This document shows positions 57,572 to 64,000 of a stretch of DNA of 64,000 nt, one piece after another. Source of the stretch: an uncultured Pelagibacteraceae bacterium (lineage in GTDB: Bacteria; Pseudomonadota; Alphaproteobacteria; Pelagibacterales; Pelagibacteraceae); the NCBI GenBank assembly GCA_902627805.1, contig CACOKN010000002.1, forward strand, positions 140,810 through 204,809, given 5' to 3'. Numbering within the stretch: position 1 is the stretch's first letter; each line of letters starts with the position of its first letter. A program made the position numbers and the translations under genes. Below the pieces are notes generated by a model. The model was not told the origin of the DNA and searched no databases. It saw nothing but the letters and a program-made list of their open reading frames with translations.

Positions 57572-58318
57572 ATGAACAAATCATCTTTTTTTATAATTGG
57601 TCAACATGCTGTCATTGAAGCTTTACGTAATCCGAAAAGAAAGGTTTTAAGAGTATTTTTAACAGAGGAAAGTAAGAAAAATATTCATAAAAAAAGCCCT
57701 AACAAAAACTTATTAAATGAGGTCAAGGTATATTTTAAAACCAAAAAAGAACTTGATAAATATAGCACTAGAGAAGATTTAAAACATCAAGGATATGTAG
57801 CAGAAGTTGAACATATTCAAAAACCAATACTTAAAGAATATATTAAAGAGAAGAATAACATTACTTTAATTTGTCTTGATGGCGTAACTGATCCAAGAAA
57901 TATAGGATCTTTGATCAGAAGTGCTGCCTCTTTTAATATTGATGGAGTAATTATTAAAGAAAGAAACTTTCCTAGTGAAAGTAAACTTATGTATAAAGCG
58001 GCAAGTGGTGCAATTGAATATATTAATGTTTTTGAGGTTTCTAATATCAATTCAACTCTGAAAAATCTAAAAGAAAAAAATTTTTGGGTATATGGTTTTG
58101 ATGGTAATGGAAAAAAAGACTTTACTGATATCGAGTGGAAAGGAAATAATATATTATTATTTGGATCTGAAGGATTAGGAATGCATAAACATACATCTAA
58201 ATATGCAGATTTTTTAGTTAAGATTGAGATAAATAAAAAAATTGAGAGCCTAAATATATCAAATAGTGCGGCAATTGTATTTCATCATTTAAGTTATCTA
58301 AAAAAAAGAGTTGATTAA
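57572..58318 (+). CDS. rlmB: TrmH-family RNA 2'-O-methyltransferase (RlmB-type)
   Basis: SpoU methylase motifs: LDGVTDPRNIGSLIRSAASFNIDGVII...LLFGSEGLGMHK...SLNISNSAAIVFHHLSY. Confidence 0.93.
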   Translation: MNKSSFFIIGQHAVIEALRNPKRKVLRVFLTEESKKNIHKKSPNKNLLNEVKVYFKTKKELDKYSTREDLKHQGYVAEVEHIQKPILKEYIKEKNNITLICLDGVTDPRNIGSLIRSAASFNIDGVIIKERNFPSESKLMYKAASGAIEYINVFEVSNINSTLKNLKEKNFWVYGFDGNGKKDFTDIEWKGNNILLFGSEGLGMHKHTSKYADFLVKIEINKKIESLNISNSAAIVFHHLSYLKKRVD

Positions 58319-58347: not shown

Positions 58348-58423
58348 GCCCTTGTAGCTCAGCTGGTAGAGCAATTGATTTGTAATCAATAGGTCCGCGG
58401 TTCGAATCCGTGCGGGGGCACCA
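58348..58423 (+). tRNA. tRNA-Thr(UGU)
   Basis: GCCCTTGTAGCTCAGCTGGTAGAGCAATTGATTTGTAATCAATAGGTCCGCGGTTCGAATCCGTGCGGGGGCACCA; anticodon TGT, encoded CCA. Confidence 0.97.
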
Positions 58424-58456
58424 TCACTCAATTAAATCAACGTTTATTATTTTTGC
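58370..58456 (+). repeat. Left copy of 87-bp direct repeat (attL-like; 3' part of tRNA-Thr plus flank)
   Basis: AGCAATTGATTTGTAATCAATAGG...GGGGGCACCATCACTCAATTAAATCAACGTTTATTATTTTTGC; matches 60304-60390 with one mismatch by eye. Confidence 0.95.
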
Positions 58457-58487
58457 TTAATCAGTTTTTAATTAGATTTTATAATTG

Positions 58488-58520
58488 ATTGTGCCAGGAT
58501 TGTGCCAGGATTGTGCCGTG
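58488..58520. repeat. Tandem 11-bp repeat x3 (arm-site-like)
   Basis: ATTGTGCCAGG ATTGTGCCAGG ATTGTGCCGTG. Confidence 0.9.
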
Positions 58521-58544
58521 ATCAAGTAGTCGTTTAAATTTTTT

Positions 58545-58961
58545 TTATTTTATTTTTTCGCAGTTCTTAAAATAATACGGACTTCCAGAAGTTCTTCTAA
58601 AACCATACTCCCAAGTTTCTTTGTCATAAGTTGAAATGTAAGAGATATATTCTAGTGTTCTTCCAACAGGATTTATCCACGTGTAAGTATAATCCTTTGT
58701 TAAAATATTTGTTCCATCTGAAGACTTAATTTCATAAACTATTTCAGTAGGATATTTTAATATACTACCCATCATTCCAACAGCTCTGAAAGTTAAAGTC
58801 TTTGTTGCGGGATCAATGTCAAAAACCACATCTATAGTTCTGTTTGTTCCACCTTTACCTTTGCAGCTAAATATTTCTTTTTTAAGATCTACTATTTTAT
58901 TGCTGTCACCACAGCCGCTTAACAACAAACCCAGAACCAAGATCCCTAAAAGTTTTTTCAT
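58545..58961 (-). CDS. Putative lipoprotein, unknown function
   Basis: Lipobox signal MKKLLGILVLGLLLSGCGDSN; no family recognised. Confidence 0.75.
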   Translation of the reverse strand: MKKLLGILVLGLLLSGCGDSNKIVDLKKEIFSCKGKGGTNRTIDVVFDIDPATKTLTFRAVGMMGSILKYPTEIVYEIKSSDGTNILTKDYTYTWINPVGRTLEYISYISTYDKETWEYGFRRTSGSPYYFKNCEKIK

Positions 58962-59410
58962 TAAAATGGGGCCTCTGATTTTACTGAAAATCTCTTAATA
59001 ACTTCTTCAATTACTGATTTTTCCATTCCACCAGTGAAACTTTCTTTATCCTCAACATCTAATGTTGCAATAAACCAGTCTTTGTTTTTAAGTTTAAAAC
59101 CTAAATTAATTTTAAGATCTTTTTTTGTTTTATTGCCTGTGATCATTGCTCCTATAATGGCTCCTACCCCACCAGTAAGCAAACCTCCAACTACAGCACC
59201 ACCTGTTTTTTTTAGAGCACTACTTGTTTTGAAAGGCTTTGAATTTTCATCTAACACTTTAAATTCCTTAACTTCATCACAATCTATTTCGAAATTCTTA
59301 CCTATGCCAAAAACTTTCCAGCCAATAACTATTTTATCTTTTCTTGCATTAAAAATAAAGTCTCTACTTATATAATCTTTTTTATTTGATTGAGTAATTG
59401 TTAAAGGCAT
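58961..59410 (-). CDS. Hypothetical protein with glycine-zipper-like segment
   Basis: 149 aa; GGAVVGGLLTGGVGAIIGAMITGNKTKKD; start abuts the lipoprotein start codon by 1 bp. Confidence 0.7.
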   Translation of the reverse strand: MPLTITQSNKKDYISRDFIFNARKDKIVIGWKVFGIGKNFEIDCDEVKEFKVLDENSKPFKTSSALKKTGGAVVGGLLTGGVGAIIGAMITGNKTKKDLKINLGFKLKNKDWFIATLDVEDKESFTGGMEKSVIEEVIKRFSVKSEAPF

Positions 59411-59413
59411 ATA

Positions 59414-59458
59414 CTAGAATATTAAACCCAGAACCATGATCCCTAAAAGTTTTTTCAT
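59414..59458 (-). pseudogene. Truncated lipoprotein signal-peptide remnant (MKKLLGIMVLGLIF*)
   Basis: ATGAAAAAACTTTTAGGGATCATGGTTCTGGGTTTAATATTCTAG; near-identical to the first ~33 nt of the ORFs starting at 58961 and 61149. Confidence 0.75.
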
Positions 59459-59466
59459 AAATAATA

Positions 59467-60216
59467 TTATAACTTGTCTATCTCCCTAAAAAAATTACCA
59501 AGTTGACTAATGGATACAATATAACTGATAACCACATATACTTTTGCAGCTGTAGCCCAACCATAAGCTTGGTTATTCTTTATTTTTACTTTTTTGAACT
59601 TCTCACTACTTCTCCATAACCCTGTATTTGCCCAAACAATATAAATCCCCAACACAATCAATATTAATGAACCAAAATATGCTGTTAGAGCTCCCGAAAT
59701 AAATCCAAATATAAGACCTCCTAGAATACAATATATCCAAAATATTGACGACATGGTTTCATTTCCCCACCAAATCTTTTCAACAATGTTTTGTTGAATT
59801 TTTTCTAATTGCTTATTGCTTTGAATATTTTGACTAGCTGTTGTTTTAAATTTTTTCTGTTCTATTTCCTTCAGAGCACTTTTTTCATTTACTTTTTGAT
59901 CAAGTGTATTTCCACAACCTTCACACAATTGAACACCTAAAGATTTTTTTGGAATTAATATTACTTGATATCTATTAACACAAAATGGACGTCCACACTG
60001 AGCATGCGTATTAGTTTTAAGATCTTCTACTCTTTTTTCTTTTTCAGCTTGTTTTTTTAAATCATTAGTACGTAAATCTATGTAAAAAACTTTTGCTTTT
60101 TGCTCGTCACCATCTGCTTTTTTAAATGCCTTCAACCAACAGTCATCATCATAGTTTTCACTTTTCAATTCCTTTCTGACAATTGATGCAATTTTTTTAT
60201 CTATATCAGTGGACAT
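59467..60216 (-). CDS. Hypothetical membrane protein with Cys pairs (zinc-ribbon-like)
   Basis: MSTDIDKKIASIVRKELKSENYDDDCWLKAFKKADGDEQKAKVFYIDLR; CGRPFC...CEGCG; hydrophobic C-terminal segments. Confidence 0.7.
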   Translation of the reverse strand: MSTDIDKKIASIVRKELKSENYDDDCWLKAFKKADGDEQKAKVFYIDLRTNDLKKQAEKEKRVEDLKTNTHAQCGRPFCVNRYQVILIPKKSLGVQLCEGCGNTLDQKVNEKSALKEIEQKKFKTTASQNIQSNKQLEKIQQNIVEKIWWGNETMSSIFWIYCILGGLIFGFISGALTAYFGSLILIVLGIYIVWANTGLWRSSEKFKKVKIKNNQAYGWATAAKVYVVISYIVSISQLGNFFREIDKL

Positions 60217-60230
60217 AAAAAAAATATACC

Positions 60231-60253
60231 ATTGTGCCCATAGTGTGACCAGA
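60231..60253. repeat. 11-bp-period direct repeat x2 at right end of cassette I
   Basis: TTGTGCCCATA GTGTGACCAGA (8/11 matching). Confidence 0.6.
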
Positions 60254-60303
60254 CTAAAAATATTTTAGGATTATTGTTGCAAACAAATGTTTATTTAAAC
60301 TTT

Positions 60304-60390
60304 AGCAATTGATTTGTAATCAATAGGTCCGCGGTTCGAATCCGTGCGGGGGCACCATCACTCAACTAAATCAACGTTTATTATTTTTGC
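60304..60390 (+). repeat. Right copy of 87-bp direct repeat (attR-like); partial tRNA-Thr
   Basis: Same sequence as 58370-58456; lacks the tRNA 5' half, so not a functional tRNA. Confidence 0.95.
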
Positions 60391-60421
60391 AAAATTAAAA
60401 TTTAATCAATTTTTAACACTG

Positions 60422-60443
60422 AGTGCAGACATAATGCAGACAG
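60422..60443. repeat. 11-bp-period direct repeat x2 (cassette II left end)
   Basis: AGTGCAGACAT AATGCAGACAG, followed by inverted repeat GATTGAT-TGTGT-ATCAATC (60443-60461). Confidence 0.7.
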
Positions 60444-60486
60444 ATTGATTGTGTATCAATCAAGTAGTCGTTGAAAAGTTTTTCCA

Positions 60487-61149
60487 CTAATAACATCTTG
60501 CCTTACCATATTTTTTTTTATTAAAGTCCCAAACTGTAATTGTAAATCCTCTGAGATTATATTCTGACTTTGCAATTCTACAGGCTAACTCTGCATAAAG
60601 ATCTGCGTTTGGTGGTGGACTTTTCAAAAATATCCAGAAAGACTCCTTTTGAGGGAAACCAGCTTCAGTATAACCAGGATCATACCATCTCTTGACTAAT
60701 GCTTTTCTTCTTTCAGCTTCTGAATTATTCGAGGATGAAGTTGAGCTTTGATTTGATGATGTTTGTGATGATGAATCATTAGCTTTTGTATTTTCTTTTT
60801 TTGGTAAAGATGCTCTTGCCTCAACCAATGTATCGTGCCAAGATTCAAGAGTTCCATTTCCAAGTTTGCATAATAAAATTCCACAAGAAACAGGTTCAGA
60901 AACATATCTAAATACATAATATTTTTTTGTATTTTCTCCCCAAATAATTTCAGTATCTATATCTGAATAAAATTCAGACCCTCCACTAGGGATAAACGGA
61001 TCATCACCAGGGTAAGAAACTATAAACGCATCCTGTAGCTGGCTTTTAGAAATATTTTTTTTGATTTTTCCACTTGAGACAATACTCTCTGTTGTAGCAC
61101 AGCCACTCAACAGCAAACCCAGAACCACGATCCCTAAAAGTTTTTTCAT
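60487..61149 (-). CDS. Putative lipoprotein, unknown function
   Basis: MKKLLGIVVLGLLLSGCATTES; Ser/Asn/Gln-rich linker SSSQTSSNQSSTSSSNNSEAERR. Confidence 0.75.
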   Translation of the reverse strand: MKKLLGIVVLGLLLSGCATTESIVSSGKIKKNISKSQLQDAFIVSYPGDDPFIPSGGSEFYSDIDTEIIWGENTKKYYVFRYVSEPVSCGILLCKLGNGTLESWHDTLVEARASLPKKENTKANDSSSQTSSNQSSTSSSNNSEAERRKALVKRWYDPGYTEAGFPQKESFWIFLKSPPPNADLYAELACRIAKSEYNLRGFTITVWDFNKKKYGKARCY

Positions 61150-61746
61150 CTAACCTTTTAATTCTTTATAGGCTTCATAAAATGATAAGTTAATACTTAG
61201 AAATACACATATGATGAAAACTAACATTGCATTAAATAAACTAGTATCAAAAAATGAAATTAAAAATGTCATAGCGAAACACCCTATTGAAATAAAAAAA
61301 GACATGATATCAGTCCCCTCAGTTCTACCTCCACTTTGTCTTTCTTTACTCGCCATCCAGAAAATTGGACCAGTAGCAACTCCGTAGCACCAAAGCATAA
61401 CAGGAAACAAATGTGCATCTCTTTGAACATTTGCTAAACCAAAATTATATACATAAAGTATCCAAACTGAAAAAGCTGCTAAAAGAAGTAAGTTTCCCAA
61501 ATACATAAATATATATCCAATTACGTTTTGTTTTTTTTCAATTAATTTAATTCCAGCAAATTGAATAGCTGTTGAAGGAAGCATTAGTAAACCTAAACCA
61601 AAAGAACTAAATATAAGAGCTATGAAACCTGCACCAATTAAAAACCAGTAATCTCCAAGTATCACTAACCAAATGAAAGCTGCGATTCCACCAAATCCAT
61701 TCATAAGCATTAATGGAATACTCACTGCTAAAATTATTTTATCCAT
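61150..61746 (-). CDS. Hypothetical polytopic membrane protein
   Basis: MDKIILAVSIPLMLMNGFGGIAAFIWLVILGDYWFLIGAGF...; start taken at MDKIIL, since the ORF-track start (61770) lies inside the end repeat. Confidence 0.65.
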   Translation of the reverse strand: MDKIILAVSIPLMLMNGFGGIAAFIWLVILGDYWFLIGAGFIALIFSSFGLGLLMLPSTAIQFAGIKLIEKKQNVIGYIFMYLGNLLLLAAFSVWILYVYNFGLANVQRDAHLFPVMLWCYGVATGPIFWMASKERQSGGRTEGTDIMSFFISIGCFAMTFLISFFDTSLFNAMLVFIICVFLSINLSFYEAYKELKG

Positions 61747-61759
61747 AAGAAAAACTATC

Positions 61760-61781
61760 ACTGTGGACATATTGCGACCAG
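61760..61781. repeat. Degenerate 11-bp-period repeat x2 (cassette II right end)
   Basis: ACTGTGGACATATTGCGACCAG; similar in spacing and context to 60231-60253. Confidence 0.4.
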
Positions 61782-61797
61782 TCTAAAAGTTTTTTCA

Positions 61798-62568
61798 TCA
61801 AGAAGTTTCTCCTCTTAACTGTTCTATTTTGATTTTCTTTTGTAAACTTCTGCTTCTATCGTAAAGAAGATTAAATTTAATTTTTTGATTAGTTTTTACT
61901 ATAATATTTTTCGCATTCCTCACCTCAATATTATCAGCAACAGCAGAAATCGGTCTTTTTTTAGAATTTAGGTTCTTGATATTTATTTTAGATTTATCAC
62001 TTACAATTTTACCCCTCCATCTTCTTGGTCTAAATGGACTTATTGGAGATATAGATAACTTTTTTGAATTCAAACTTAATATAGGTCCGTGAACTGATAA
62101 ATTATAAGCAGTACTTCCTGCGGGTGTGGAAACCAGTACACCATCTGAAACAAGTTTTTTTATAACTTGTTTAGAACCATGATAGATTGATAAAGAAGCT
62201 GCCTGCCTACTTTGTCTTAGAATTGAAACTTCATTTATAGCAATATGTTTTTTAGTTTGATTTTTATTATTTTTAACTAACATTTCTAATGGAGAGATGG
62301 TTATCATTCTTGCTTTTTGTAAATTGCTTATGATATTTTTAGATGAAAATTTATTCATCAAAAATCCATAACTTCCAGAATTTATGCCATAAAAAAACTT
62401 TTTTGATTTTCTATTCTTTTTTAGTGTTTGAAGCATAAAACCATCACCACCAATAACAATTATAATATTGGATTTTTTAACTTTATTTTGATTAATTTTT
62501 TTTTGGATTATCGATTTAATTTTTAAAGATCTTTGATTTTTATCAGATATGATTTGAACCCTGTTCAT
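61798..62568 (-). CDS. nadK: NAD kinase
   Basis: IIIVIGGDGFMLQTLKKN...GINSGSYGFLMN...ISIYHGSKQVIKKLVSDGVLVSTPAGSTAYNLSVHGPIL. Confidence 0.92.
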   Translation of the reverse strand: MNRVQIISDKNQRSLKIKSIIQKKINQNKVKKSNIIIVIGGDGFMLQTLKKNRKSKKFFYGINSGSYGFLMNKFSSKNIISNLQKARMITISPLEMLVKNNKNQTKKHIAINEVSILRQSRQAASLSIYHGSKQVIKKLVSDGVLVSTPAGSTAYNLSVHGPILSLNSKKLSISPISPFRPRRWRGKIVSDKSKINIKNLNSKKRPISAVADNIEVRNAKNIIVKTNQKIKFNLLYDRSRSLQKKIKIEQLRGETS

Positions 62569-62572
62569 TTAA

Positions 62573-62658
62573 TGGTGCCCTCGGCCAGACTCGAACTGGC
62601 ACTCCGCAAGCGGCAAGGATTTTAAGTCCTTTGTGTCTACCAATTTCACCACGAGGGC
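62573..62658 (-). tRNA. tRNA-Leu(UAA)
   Basis: Reverse complement GCCCTCGTGGTGAAATTGGTAGACACAAAGGACTTAAAATCCTTGCCGCTTGCGGAGTGCCAGTTCGAGTCTGGCCGAGGGCACCA. Confidence 0.97.
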
Positions 62659-62742
62659 ATTAGTTATTTTCATGAGTATTTATGTTAATATTTATAATTG
62701 AACAAGATGAATAAGTAAATTTTATTTAATTTATCTCTCTAG

Positions 62743-62764
62743 GTACCAGTTGAGTACCAGTTGT
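62743..62764. repeat. 11-bp direct repeat x2 (cassette III left end)
   Basis: GTACCAGTTGA GTACCAGTTGT. Confidence 0.85.
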
Positions 62765-62810
62765 CCCAGATTATCCTACAAAATTTCATATATTTTTATT
62801 TTGTTTTTAT

Positions 62811-63239
62811 CTAAAGTTTTTTTCTCATTTTTTTGTAATAACTGCCCCACTCATTAAGCAATCTATTAGCTTTTAAACCTTTTACAGGGTCCCCTTCGTT
62901 CCATGCTTCAATTTTAAGTCTCAATCCTTCTCTAAATAGATTTTCATAATTTTTGGATAGAGATTTAAAAAATAGACTTGGATCCATCCAATCTAGATCA
63001 TCATTTTTTACCAATTTTGAGTATTCTAAAGATTTTTTTGAATGATTAATAATTTTTCTTACCTCTGATCTAGTCAAGGTACCCTTTGCACCTCTGCTTT
63101 GAGATATGCTATCTTCAAAACTAAGTCCCTTTTGTATTTCTAAGATAGATAATCTAAAATATTCTAAACTACTCCTATCAGCAGATAATACTTGAGTAGT
63201 AATCAAAAAAAACATTGCTGTTAAATATAATTTTCTCAT
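62811..63239 (-). CDS. Hypothetical secreted protein
   Basis: Signal-like MRKLYLTAMFFLITTQVLSAD; 142 aa; no family recognised. Confidence 0.65.
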   Translation of the reverse strand: MRKLYLTAMFFLITTQVLSADRSSLEYFRLSILEIQKGLSFEDSISQSRGAKGTLTRSEVRKIINHSKKSLEYSKLVKNDDLDWMDPSLFFKSLSKNYENLFREGLRLKIEAWNEGDPVKGLKANRLLNEWGSYYKKMRKKL

Positions 63240-63252
63240 GATATTATTTTAT

Positions 63253-63432
63253 ATGGATAAAATATTAATGGCTATAGCGATAGTATATGGCATAAGTGTT
63301 GCAATTTTTGCTCTTTATTATAATTGGCTCTATGCAAAGACACATGGATTTATAGCTTGGCTGCTATTTGGAGAGATTATTGCTAGCTTAAAGGCTTTAG
63401 TTTGGCCATTGTTTGAATTTAATATCATATAG
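63253..63432 (+). CDS. Hypothetical small membrane protein
   Basis: MDKILMAIAIVYGISVAIFALYYNWLYAKTHGFIAWLLFGEIIASLKALVWPLFEFNII; start taken at ATG 63253, not 63238. Confidence 0.55.
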   Translation: MDKILMAIAIVYGISVAIFALYYNWLYAKTHGFIAWLLFGEIIASLKALVWPLFEFNII

Positions 63433-63501
63433 ATTAAACATTCTATATTATTCAGTTTAAGTCAACTCTTAATCATTTTAGATTATTTCTTATCCATATT
63501 T

Positions 63502-63933
63502 TTAATAAGTCACAAATTTACAATTAGACTCAAATCTTTTGATGTTAATGTTCTCTCCAGGCTCATATAAATTTATATATGTTTTCATTTCATCTAAATT
63601 TATAAAAATATCAAAAACCCTTCCCCAAGCCTCAGCATCTTTGGCCTTTGGATAAAGGTGATAAATATTATTATCAACTAATTGAACACCAAATGGAGAA
63701 TCCTTCCAACCTGGCATTTCAGCTCCATCTAAACGATAAAAGTATCCTGTGCCTAAATTAGCCTGTTTCTTGTAATCAATTTTAAATACAAGATTCTTGG
63801 GTTTGAAATAATCAGGATCTGGTTTTTGAACATCGCAATACAAAAACTTATTTTCAAGATCTGCTAAACTTACATTGCAACAAAAAAAAACAAAAAATAT
63901 GGTTAATGAAAATTTTTTCATTAATAAAACCAT
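63502..63933 (-). CDS. Hypothetical secreted protein
   Basis: Signal peptide MKKFSLTIFFVFFCCNVSLAD (likely start ATG 63921); no family recognised. Confidence 0.65.
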   Translation of the reverse strand: MVLLMKKFSLTIFFVFFCCNVSLADLENKFLYCDVQKPDPDYFKPKNLVFKIDYKKQANLGTGYFYRLDGAEMPGWKDSPFGVQLVDNNIYHLYPKAKDAEAWGRVFDIFINLDEMKTYINLYEPGENINIKRFESNCKFVTY

Positions 63934-63950
63934 ATAATATTATCTCCCCA

Positions 63951-63972
63951 AGTACCAGTTGAGTACCAGTTT
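63951..63972. repeat. 11-bp direct repeat x2 (cassette III right end)
   Basis: AGTACCAGTTG AGTACCAGTTT; same unit as 62743-62764. Confidence 0.85.
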
Positions 63973-64000
63973 GAACAAATTAATTAAGCCTTACTTTCTA

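Follow-up and report, generated by a model that had tools for sequence, protein, structure and literature searches.

SAR11 bacteria are among the most abundant cell types on Earth; they carry few mobile elements and prophages and show very high microdiversity in gene content. To our knowledge, no mechanism has so far been given for the turnover of tRNA-linked variable regions such as HVR4. The tRNA-Thr locus described here, from an SAR11-type genome (Pelagibacteraceae) of 1.14 Mb, raises this question on a small scale: how could 1.9 kb of DNA that encodes no integrase have come to lie between two copies of a tRNA end? The window, to which all positions refer, is the whole stretch of 64,000 nucleotides that was analysed, and its end coincides with the end of the contig. 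We consider it probable that the segment 58424-60303 (element 1) and its decayed neighbour 60358-61797 (element 2) are non-autonomous attP cassettes that were integrated in trans by phage or satellite integrases.

Target site and the two elements in the window

The target gene is an intact tRNA-Thr(UGU) at 58348-58423 (+), as identified by ARAGORN. On its left lies a spoU-type rRNA methyltransferase gene (57572-58318, +; PF00588, 6e-38), which is the same neighbour in most relatives. The conserved right flank is nadK, encoding NAD kinase (61798-62568, -; PF20143), and this gene adjoins the tRNA-Thr in relatives with an empty site. An 87-bp repeat with one mismatch, enclosing about 1.9 kb, had been predicted and was confirmed: 58370-58456 recurs directly at 60304-60390 with a spacing of 1934 and a single mismatch (58432 T vs 60366 C). 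Each copy consists of 54 bp of the tRNA-Thr 3' end (tRNA positions 23-76), the core, and 33 bp of a conserved, non-tRNA element end. The first core (58370-58423, +), which is also found in the viral contig L034, is the 3' part of the intact tRNA and forms attL, while the second (60304-60357, +) is at once attR of element 1 and attL of element 2. The named genomes with exact core matches were Pelagibacteraceae, mostly single-amplified genomes. Weaker, gapped homology runs beyond the repeat to about 58545 and 60483, which indicates that the second copy, more than a tRNA scar, forms the left end of another element.

In element 1, the conserved left-end segment (TCACTCAATTAAATCAACG...; 58424-58456, +) has the same motif as the DNA right of the core in many elements. 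It is followed by a right-arm set of three 11-mers, GATTGTGCCAG / GATTGTGCCAG / GATTGTGCCGT, the third diverged (58487-58519, +), recognized from the sequence and the period-11 statistics given below. The cargo, all on the reverse strand, comprises an orphan lipoprotein of 138 aa (58545-58961), a glycine-zipper-like protein of 149 aa with a weak match to phrog_888 (58961-59410) and a membrane protein of 249 aa (59467-60216), the start codon of which is 87 bp from the core. The left-arm set, ATTGTGCCCAT / AGTGTGACCAG, occupies the leader between this start and the core (60231-60252, +). The original prediction had listed both sets of 11-mers correctly but placed the latter two outside the right repeat copy; they lie inside the element, just left of it.

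Element 2 has the same plan, with a conserved left-end segment (60358-60390, +), arm-type repeats GAGTGCAGACA / TAATGCAGACA seen in the sequence (60421-60442, +), and genes for a 220-aa lipoprotein (60487-61149, -) and a 206-aa membrane protein (61150-61770, -), ahead of a left-arm set CACTGTGGACA / TATTGCGACCAG (61759-61781, +). The true start of the membrane protein is probably near 61747, just inside this arm set. Proteins with the same start as the 220-aa lipoprotein were present in elements of L089, L097, L104 and L107. Element 2 is partly deleted: a deletion that joins it to nadK has removed its right core, and excision at its own ends is therefore no longer possible. Altogether the window cargo amounts to two lipoproteins, two membrane proteins and one small glycine-zipper-like protein without a clear family. 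The lipoprotein genes of the two elements share a 52-bp start (58910-58961 vs 61098-61149; 92% identical) and then diverge. This start encodes the signal peptide MKKLLGI(L/V)VLGLLLSGC, and related starts occur in other cassettes; it is perhaps a recombination module.

Occupied and empty sites among relatives

The tRNA-Thr locus was taken from about 110 relatives and oriented on the tRNA. The interval from spoU through tRNA-Thr to nadK held 0 to 5 elements, counts that are not population frequencies, as the loci were chosen partly by similarity to the element end and the sample is biased to occupied sites. Extra copies of the tRNA-Thr 3' part, at most five in one locus (L100), divided the DNA between tRNA-Thr and nadK into 81 intervals, which range from 0.6 to 7.6 kb and in 73 cases fall below 3 kb; most elements were 0.6-2.8 kb long. 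At 23 of 77 loci, the DNA between tRNA-Thr and nadK had no recognisable core copy.

Both empty sites and alternative cargo had been proposed as things to look for, and both were found. In L045, L049, L050, L056, L146 and L150, nadK follows 5-36 bp after the CCA of the tRNA, and in L108 there are 131 bp between the CCA and nadK. The nearest empty site is L146 (G204), which is identical to the window at 526 of 547 bp upstream of the tRNA, with the end of nadK directly after the CCA. Where the site is filled, different cargo is the rule: the 190 cargo ORFs fall into 130 protein clusters. In the 16 arrays with at least two copies, identity of the core to the host tRNA over 46 bp averaged 99% for proximal and 91% for distal copies, which is consistent with newer insertions adjoining the tRNA.

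A class of larger tRNA-Thr elements (2.5-7.6 kb) was seen in L048, L053, L093, L097 and L127, several of them with AGTGAAT-type arms. The largest ORF of L048_1 has 883 aa, and the matches obtained for the cargo include a type IIG restriction enzyme family. In L058 (G059) and L059 (G055), from a second family of the same order, as many as four 3' fragments, spaced only 400-520 bp, come after the tRNA-Thr; a TTCAAGTCC-type core that matches these fragments occurs in the viral contigs L158, L168, L173, L176, L180 and L187.

Arm-type repeats on both sides of the core

An attP read by a tyrosine integrase should carry phased arm sites around its core, and the original prediction had recognised this layout in element 1. 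We examined arm zones at about +55 to +110 right of the core and about -75 to -45 left of the next core. Among the 73 elements shorter than 3 kb, GC-containing heptamer repeats with a period of exactly 11 were present right of the core in 64 and left in 50. Other periods (8-10 and 12-15) occurred in 0-6 elements each and the cargo controls gave about 1, so the 11-mers of the window are not due to chance. In an independent set of 33 elements, period-11 repeats were found in 30 (right) and 23 (left).

The arm motifs differ from element to element (GTGCCAG, GTGACG, GTTACC, GTGTCG, GCAGACA, GTGTTA, GTTGTCA, GTTGCAG and others), yet the two ends of one element share their motif. Agreement within the 81 elements was 11.78, compared to 8.06 after permutation (sd 0.25; maximum 9.14 of 20,000; z 14.8), and it recurred in the independent set (n=33; z 10.1). 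Clear agreement was absent from about 12 of the 81 intervals, some of which are decayed or of another class. The class of the right arm also predicted the left half-core at the opposite end of the element (MI 2.01 vs a permuted maximum of 1.63). In the chromosome, 0.6-2.8 kb separate the two ends, but in a circle the distance would be about 150 bp. Matched motifs at ends that are distant in the chromosome and close in a circle are what a single attP recognised by a single integrase would be expected to show. The elements thus combine a core identical to the target with phased and matched arm repeats on both sides, which supports the predicted attP layout; we infer that the 11-mers are integrase arm sites.

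Cargo slot and gene content

The cargo is arranged uniformly. For 125,988 of 127,143 ORF bases (99%), the coding strand is not that of the tRNA. The first start codon lies 84-90 bp from the core in 45 of the 73 small elements, with a mode of 87 (29 elements), and CAT occupies the start-codon position in 27 of 33 elements of the second set. The slot that the 249-aa ORF start takes in element 1 is the one used by the integrase gene (int) of L034, at about 95 bp from the core.

The largest cargo cluster (n=27) is type IV pilin-like, with an N-methylation motif. These 27 divergent proteins (L128:5926-6516 and 26 related ORFs) include several from elements with GTTACC-type arms, and such cargo is a possible route for varying surface pilins. 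Other cargo includes restriction-like SRA/HNH and MrcB_N-type proteins, T5orf172, methyltransferases and a bacterial globin, as well as a trypsin-like protease, GSDH, TPR proteins and lipoproteins. An intact integrase was found in none of the elements. Of the Pfam families listed for 95 cargo proteins, none of the first 25 is a conjugation family.

Transfer between distant hosts

Several pairs of elements are much more similar than their hosts. Over 633 bp, L091_1 does not differ from L101_1 (100% identity), compared to 76.7% for the spoU genes of the hosts. The same contrast between element and host spoU was found for L080_1/L113_1 (94.2% vs 77.4%), L100_5/L129_1 (97.8% vs 75.1%), L087_1/L116_1 (97.4% vs 81.3%) and L052_1/L098_1 (96.9% vs 85.1%). 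Cargo this similar in such distant hosts shows that transfer was recent. L101_1 is a hybrid, with the right arm of one class and the left end and cargo of another, which means that homologous exchange happens as well; cargo can thus move by homologous recombination between the conserved ends.

Integrases at the tRNA-Thr site

A search for an integrase with a matching att site, as the original prediction had advised, was successful in a virus and in a host. The viral contig L034 (8.9 kb, IMG/VR) encodes a 328-aa tyrosine integrase beside the same core, with GCGGACA arms, and a host contig (L192/L214, G272) encodes one that is 73% identical to it, beside the tRNA-Thr core and nadK, with GTTGCAG arms. 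Furthermore, the host element L106_1 (G397) ends in a truncated integrase of the L034 type (66% identity, 74 aa), and 17 bp of the left arm of L083_1, TTGCGGACATAGTGCGG, are identical to the left arm of L034. Most of the SAR11 integrase-bearing elements examined, at several tRNAs, had paired repeats in the gap that separates the start of int from the tRNA core. Integrases in the rest of the genus (21 of 399 genomes) are mostly located at tRNA-Met, tRNA-Asn, tmRNA and other sites; those at tRNA-Thr are confined to G272 and the fragment in G397. Integrase-bearing elements are therefore rare at a site where cassettes are common, as would be expected for non-autonomous elements. An integrase with the GTGCCAG arm class of the window itself was not found in the viral and relative sequences examined.

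The window genome contains no phage-type integrase; its only PF00589 match is an XerD-like gene outside the elements. This gene (L001, 317 aa) is unlikely to be the mobiliser. It has only the SAM-like N-terminal domain, with no recognised arm-binding domain, and nearly every searched genome of the genus has one such gene. Other candidates were rejected as well: an integrase near L053 (G028) adjoins tRNA-Leu(tag) outside the tRNA-Thr array, and two viral hits do not represent attP sites, L032 being an unrelated phage and L033 a phage with a complete tRNA-Thr gene.

L034 (1-8916) encodes an AAA_25/primase-like protein, a terminase small subunit and the integrase, without recognised structural genes, and it may be a satellite rather than a phage. 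It has no terminal repeat, and close relatives of its integrase were found neither in cultured phages (best 37%) nor elsewhere in IMG/VR. A 6.4-kb element at tRNA-Asn (L213:11351-17760, G277) encodes an integrase that shares 76% identity with the L034 enzyme; it also has small ORFs and a gene for a primase-like protein (DUF5906, phrog_1156), and looks like a SAR11 phage satellite. Some SAR11 integrases (L204-L207, L210) adjoin an antisense tRNA, which suggests that they use the 5' half of the tRNA and not its 3' end.

How the cassettes may have arisen

We propose that a cassette consists of an attachment module, that is, a core from the anticodon-to-3' part of tRNA-Thr with 11-bp-phased arms on both sides, and a cargo operon on one strand. 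The operon would begin at a fixed distance from the core, where autonomous relatives carry int. A phage or satellite integrase of the L034/G272 type would join the circular cassette to the 3' end of an intact tRNA-Thr and thereby regenerate the tRNA. Repeated insertions would stack cassettes between tRNA-Thr and nadK, probably with the newest beside the tRNA. In this scheme, we infer the steps of excision, circle formation, enzyme supply in trans and the route of transfer.

The simplest alternative, a local segmental duplication of the tRNA end, would account for a direct repeat with one mismatch. It is refuted by the empty sites and the replacement of cargo in relatives, where unrelated genes lie between the same repeats and up to five extra copies occur (L100), and we give it practically no weight. 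The elements might instead be immobile remnants of prophages or satellites at tRNA-Thr that lost their middle and kept the att ends and a few genes. Such decay would agree with the missing right core of element 2, the truncated integrase of L106_1, the similarity of a few locus proteins to proteins of L034 (31-62% identity) and the occupied loci without a core copy. However, random internal deletion would not yield a constant start at 84-90 bp, cargo that is 99% on one strand and intact arms that co-vary, and nearly identical cargo in distant hosts speaks for recent transfer; remnants are thus an improbable general explanation.

Also unlikely, in our estimate, is that an integrase acted only at the origin and that cassettes have since been exchanged through homologous recombination of the RecA type, with the conserved cassette ends and the tRNA copies as sites of exchange. 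The hybrid L101_1 fits this idea, and the conserved 33-bp left-end segments and the tRNA copies could serve as substrates. But free recombination from end to end would scramble the arm classes, which stay matched, and site-specific joining is required for a cassette to enter an empty site for the first time with an exact junction at the tRNA 3' end. As for the 11-bp repeats, they could be operators at which transcription factors regulate the cargo, because the left set falls within the leader of the cargo operon and immediately precedes the start codon. We regard this as very improbable: the right set is downstream of the cargo and beside the tRNA, yet it matches the left set motif for motif, and integrase-bearing SAR11 elements at several tRNAs have the same paired repeats between int and core. 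Regulation and integrase binding may nevertheless overlap at the left set. Integration in trans of attP cassettes is the reading we prefer for the two elements. Decay and homologous exchange probably operate at the locus alongside integrase action, and the point at issue is which of the three builds the cassettes.

A second hotspot at tRNA-Leu(UAA)

The neighbouring tRNA-Leu(UAA) (62573-62658, -) marks a second hotspot (region 62573-64000). Partial copies of this tRNA, mostly of its 5' half, were seen in 35 of 80 relatives, 1-6 kb away and enclosing cargo with 11-bp arms. In the window, the arms are GTACCAGTTGA/GTACCAGTTGT (62743-62764) and GTACCAGTTGA/GTACCAGTTTG (63952-63973), with ORFs at 62811-63239 and 63502-63933 between them, and the contig ends where the second tRNA-Leu core is expected. 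This partner system, like element 2 with its own arms, was not part of the original prediction.

Relation to known systems

The original prediction spoke of a candidate for an undescribed system. This is true only in part, since islands of cassettes with tRNA direct repeats are known from other marine bacteria, as additive flexible genomic islands of Ca. Actinomarinales (PMC7771536) and fGI-2 of Ca. Methylopumilus (PMC10872708). There, as at our locus, a tRNA gene is followed by cassettes that end in tRNA direct repeats, and presence and cargo vary among close relatives. The passages of these papers that describe the islands do not name arm-type sites, co-variation of ends, a fixed cargo slot or a matching integrase. 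Within the excerpts of the open-access literature at hand, we found no account of arm-site co-variation, a fixed cargo slot or cognate integrases for such cassettes. On this basis, what appears new here is the co-diversified arms, the fixed slot and the matching integrase, and not the arrays of tRNA-repeat cassettes as such.

Tycheposons have a tRNA at one end and a partial tRNA at the other. Our cassettes resemble them in these ends, in carrying cargo and in their streamlined marine hosts, and the earlier term 'tycheposon-like' holds loosely, for a small element without a recombinase. The term does not hold for recombinase and size: tycheposons are larger, 4-200 kb in Prochlorococcus according to the passage on them in PMC10872708, and are described with a tyrosine recombinase, whereas the cassettes are mostly 0.6-2.8 kb long and have none. 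With respect to phage satellites of the PICI/PICMI type, int and primase-type genes are present in L034 and L213 (G277), and terS also in L034, whereas the window elements have no int, primase, regulator or terS gene.

CIMEs are cis-mobilizable elements derived from ICEs, in which cargo that lacks recombination genes lies between attL and attR. The cassettes share this structure and the accretion beside a related element, but the related integrase is of phage or satellite type and conjugation families are absent from the Pfam families listed above. The closest functional analogy is to the integrase-less integron arrays (CALIN, PMC11389934), in which small cassettes, mostly in one orientation and anchored at one point, depend on a tyrosine recombinase elsewhere. 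Where integron cassettes carry attC, each cassette here has a double-stranded attP of phage type, with a tRNA core and arm sites, as well as its own leader. HVR4 of the SAR11 strain HTCC1062 is flanked by tRNAs and contains pilins and a bacterial-like globin; attC sites were not found in it, and no mechanism is given in the part of PMC2217521 that deals with it. By description only, HVR4 resembles our locus in its tRNA flanks and in pilin and globin cargo, and it differs in that the same part of that paper describes it only as a variable region.

Implications for SAR11

The anatomy of the cassettes, the empty sites and the matching integrase together offer a concrete and testable mechanism of turnover, in which the exchange of host genes would depend on phage or satellite integrases. 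Co-diversifying arms in integrase-less cassettes would provide a catalogue of the arm specificities of integrases as they occur in nature, and arm co-variation could serve as a signature for finding non-autonomous elements elsewhere, a MITE or CALIN counterpart of phage integrases. The cassettes would also help to explain how streamlined SAR11 vary their surface and defence genes. A wider reading, on which we are evenly divided, is that at least tRNA-Thr and the neighbouring tRNA-Leu are integron-like gene-capture platforms of SAR11. The attP cassettes on these platforms, which have no integrase of their own, would combine a constant promoter/att leader with exchangeable cargo (pilins, modification-dependent nucleases, lipoproteins, globin) and would have diversified into about ten arm classes, each of which tracks the arm specificity of a different phage or satellite integrase that acts in trans. 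If this is true, the genes of the host ride on the recombination machinery of its own viruses.
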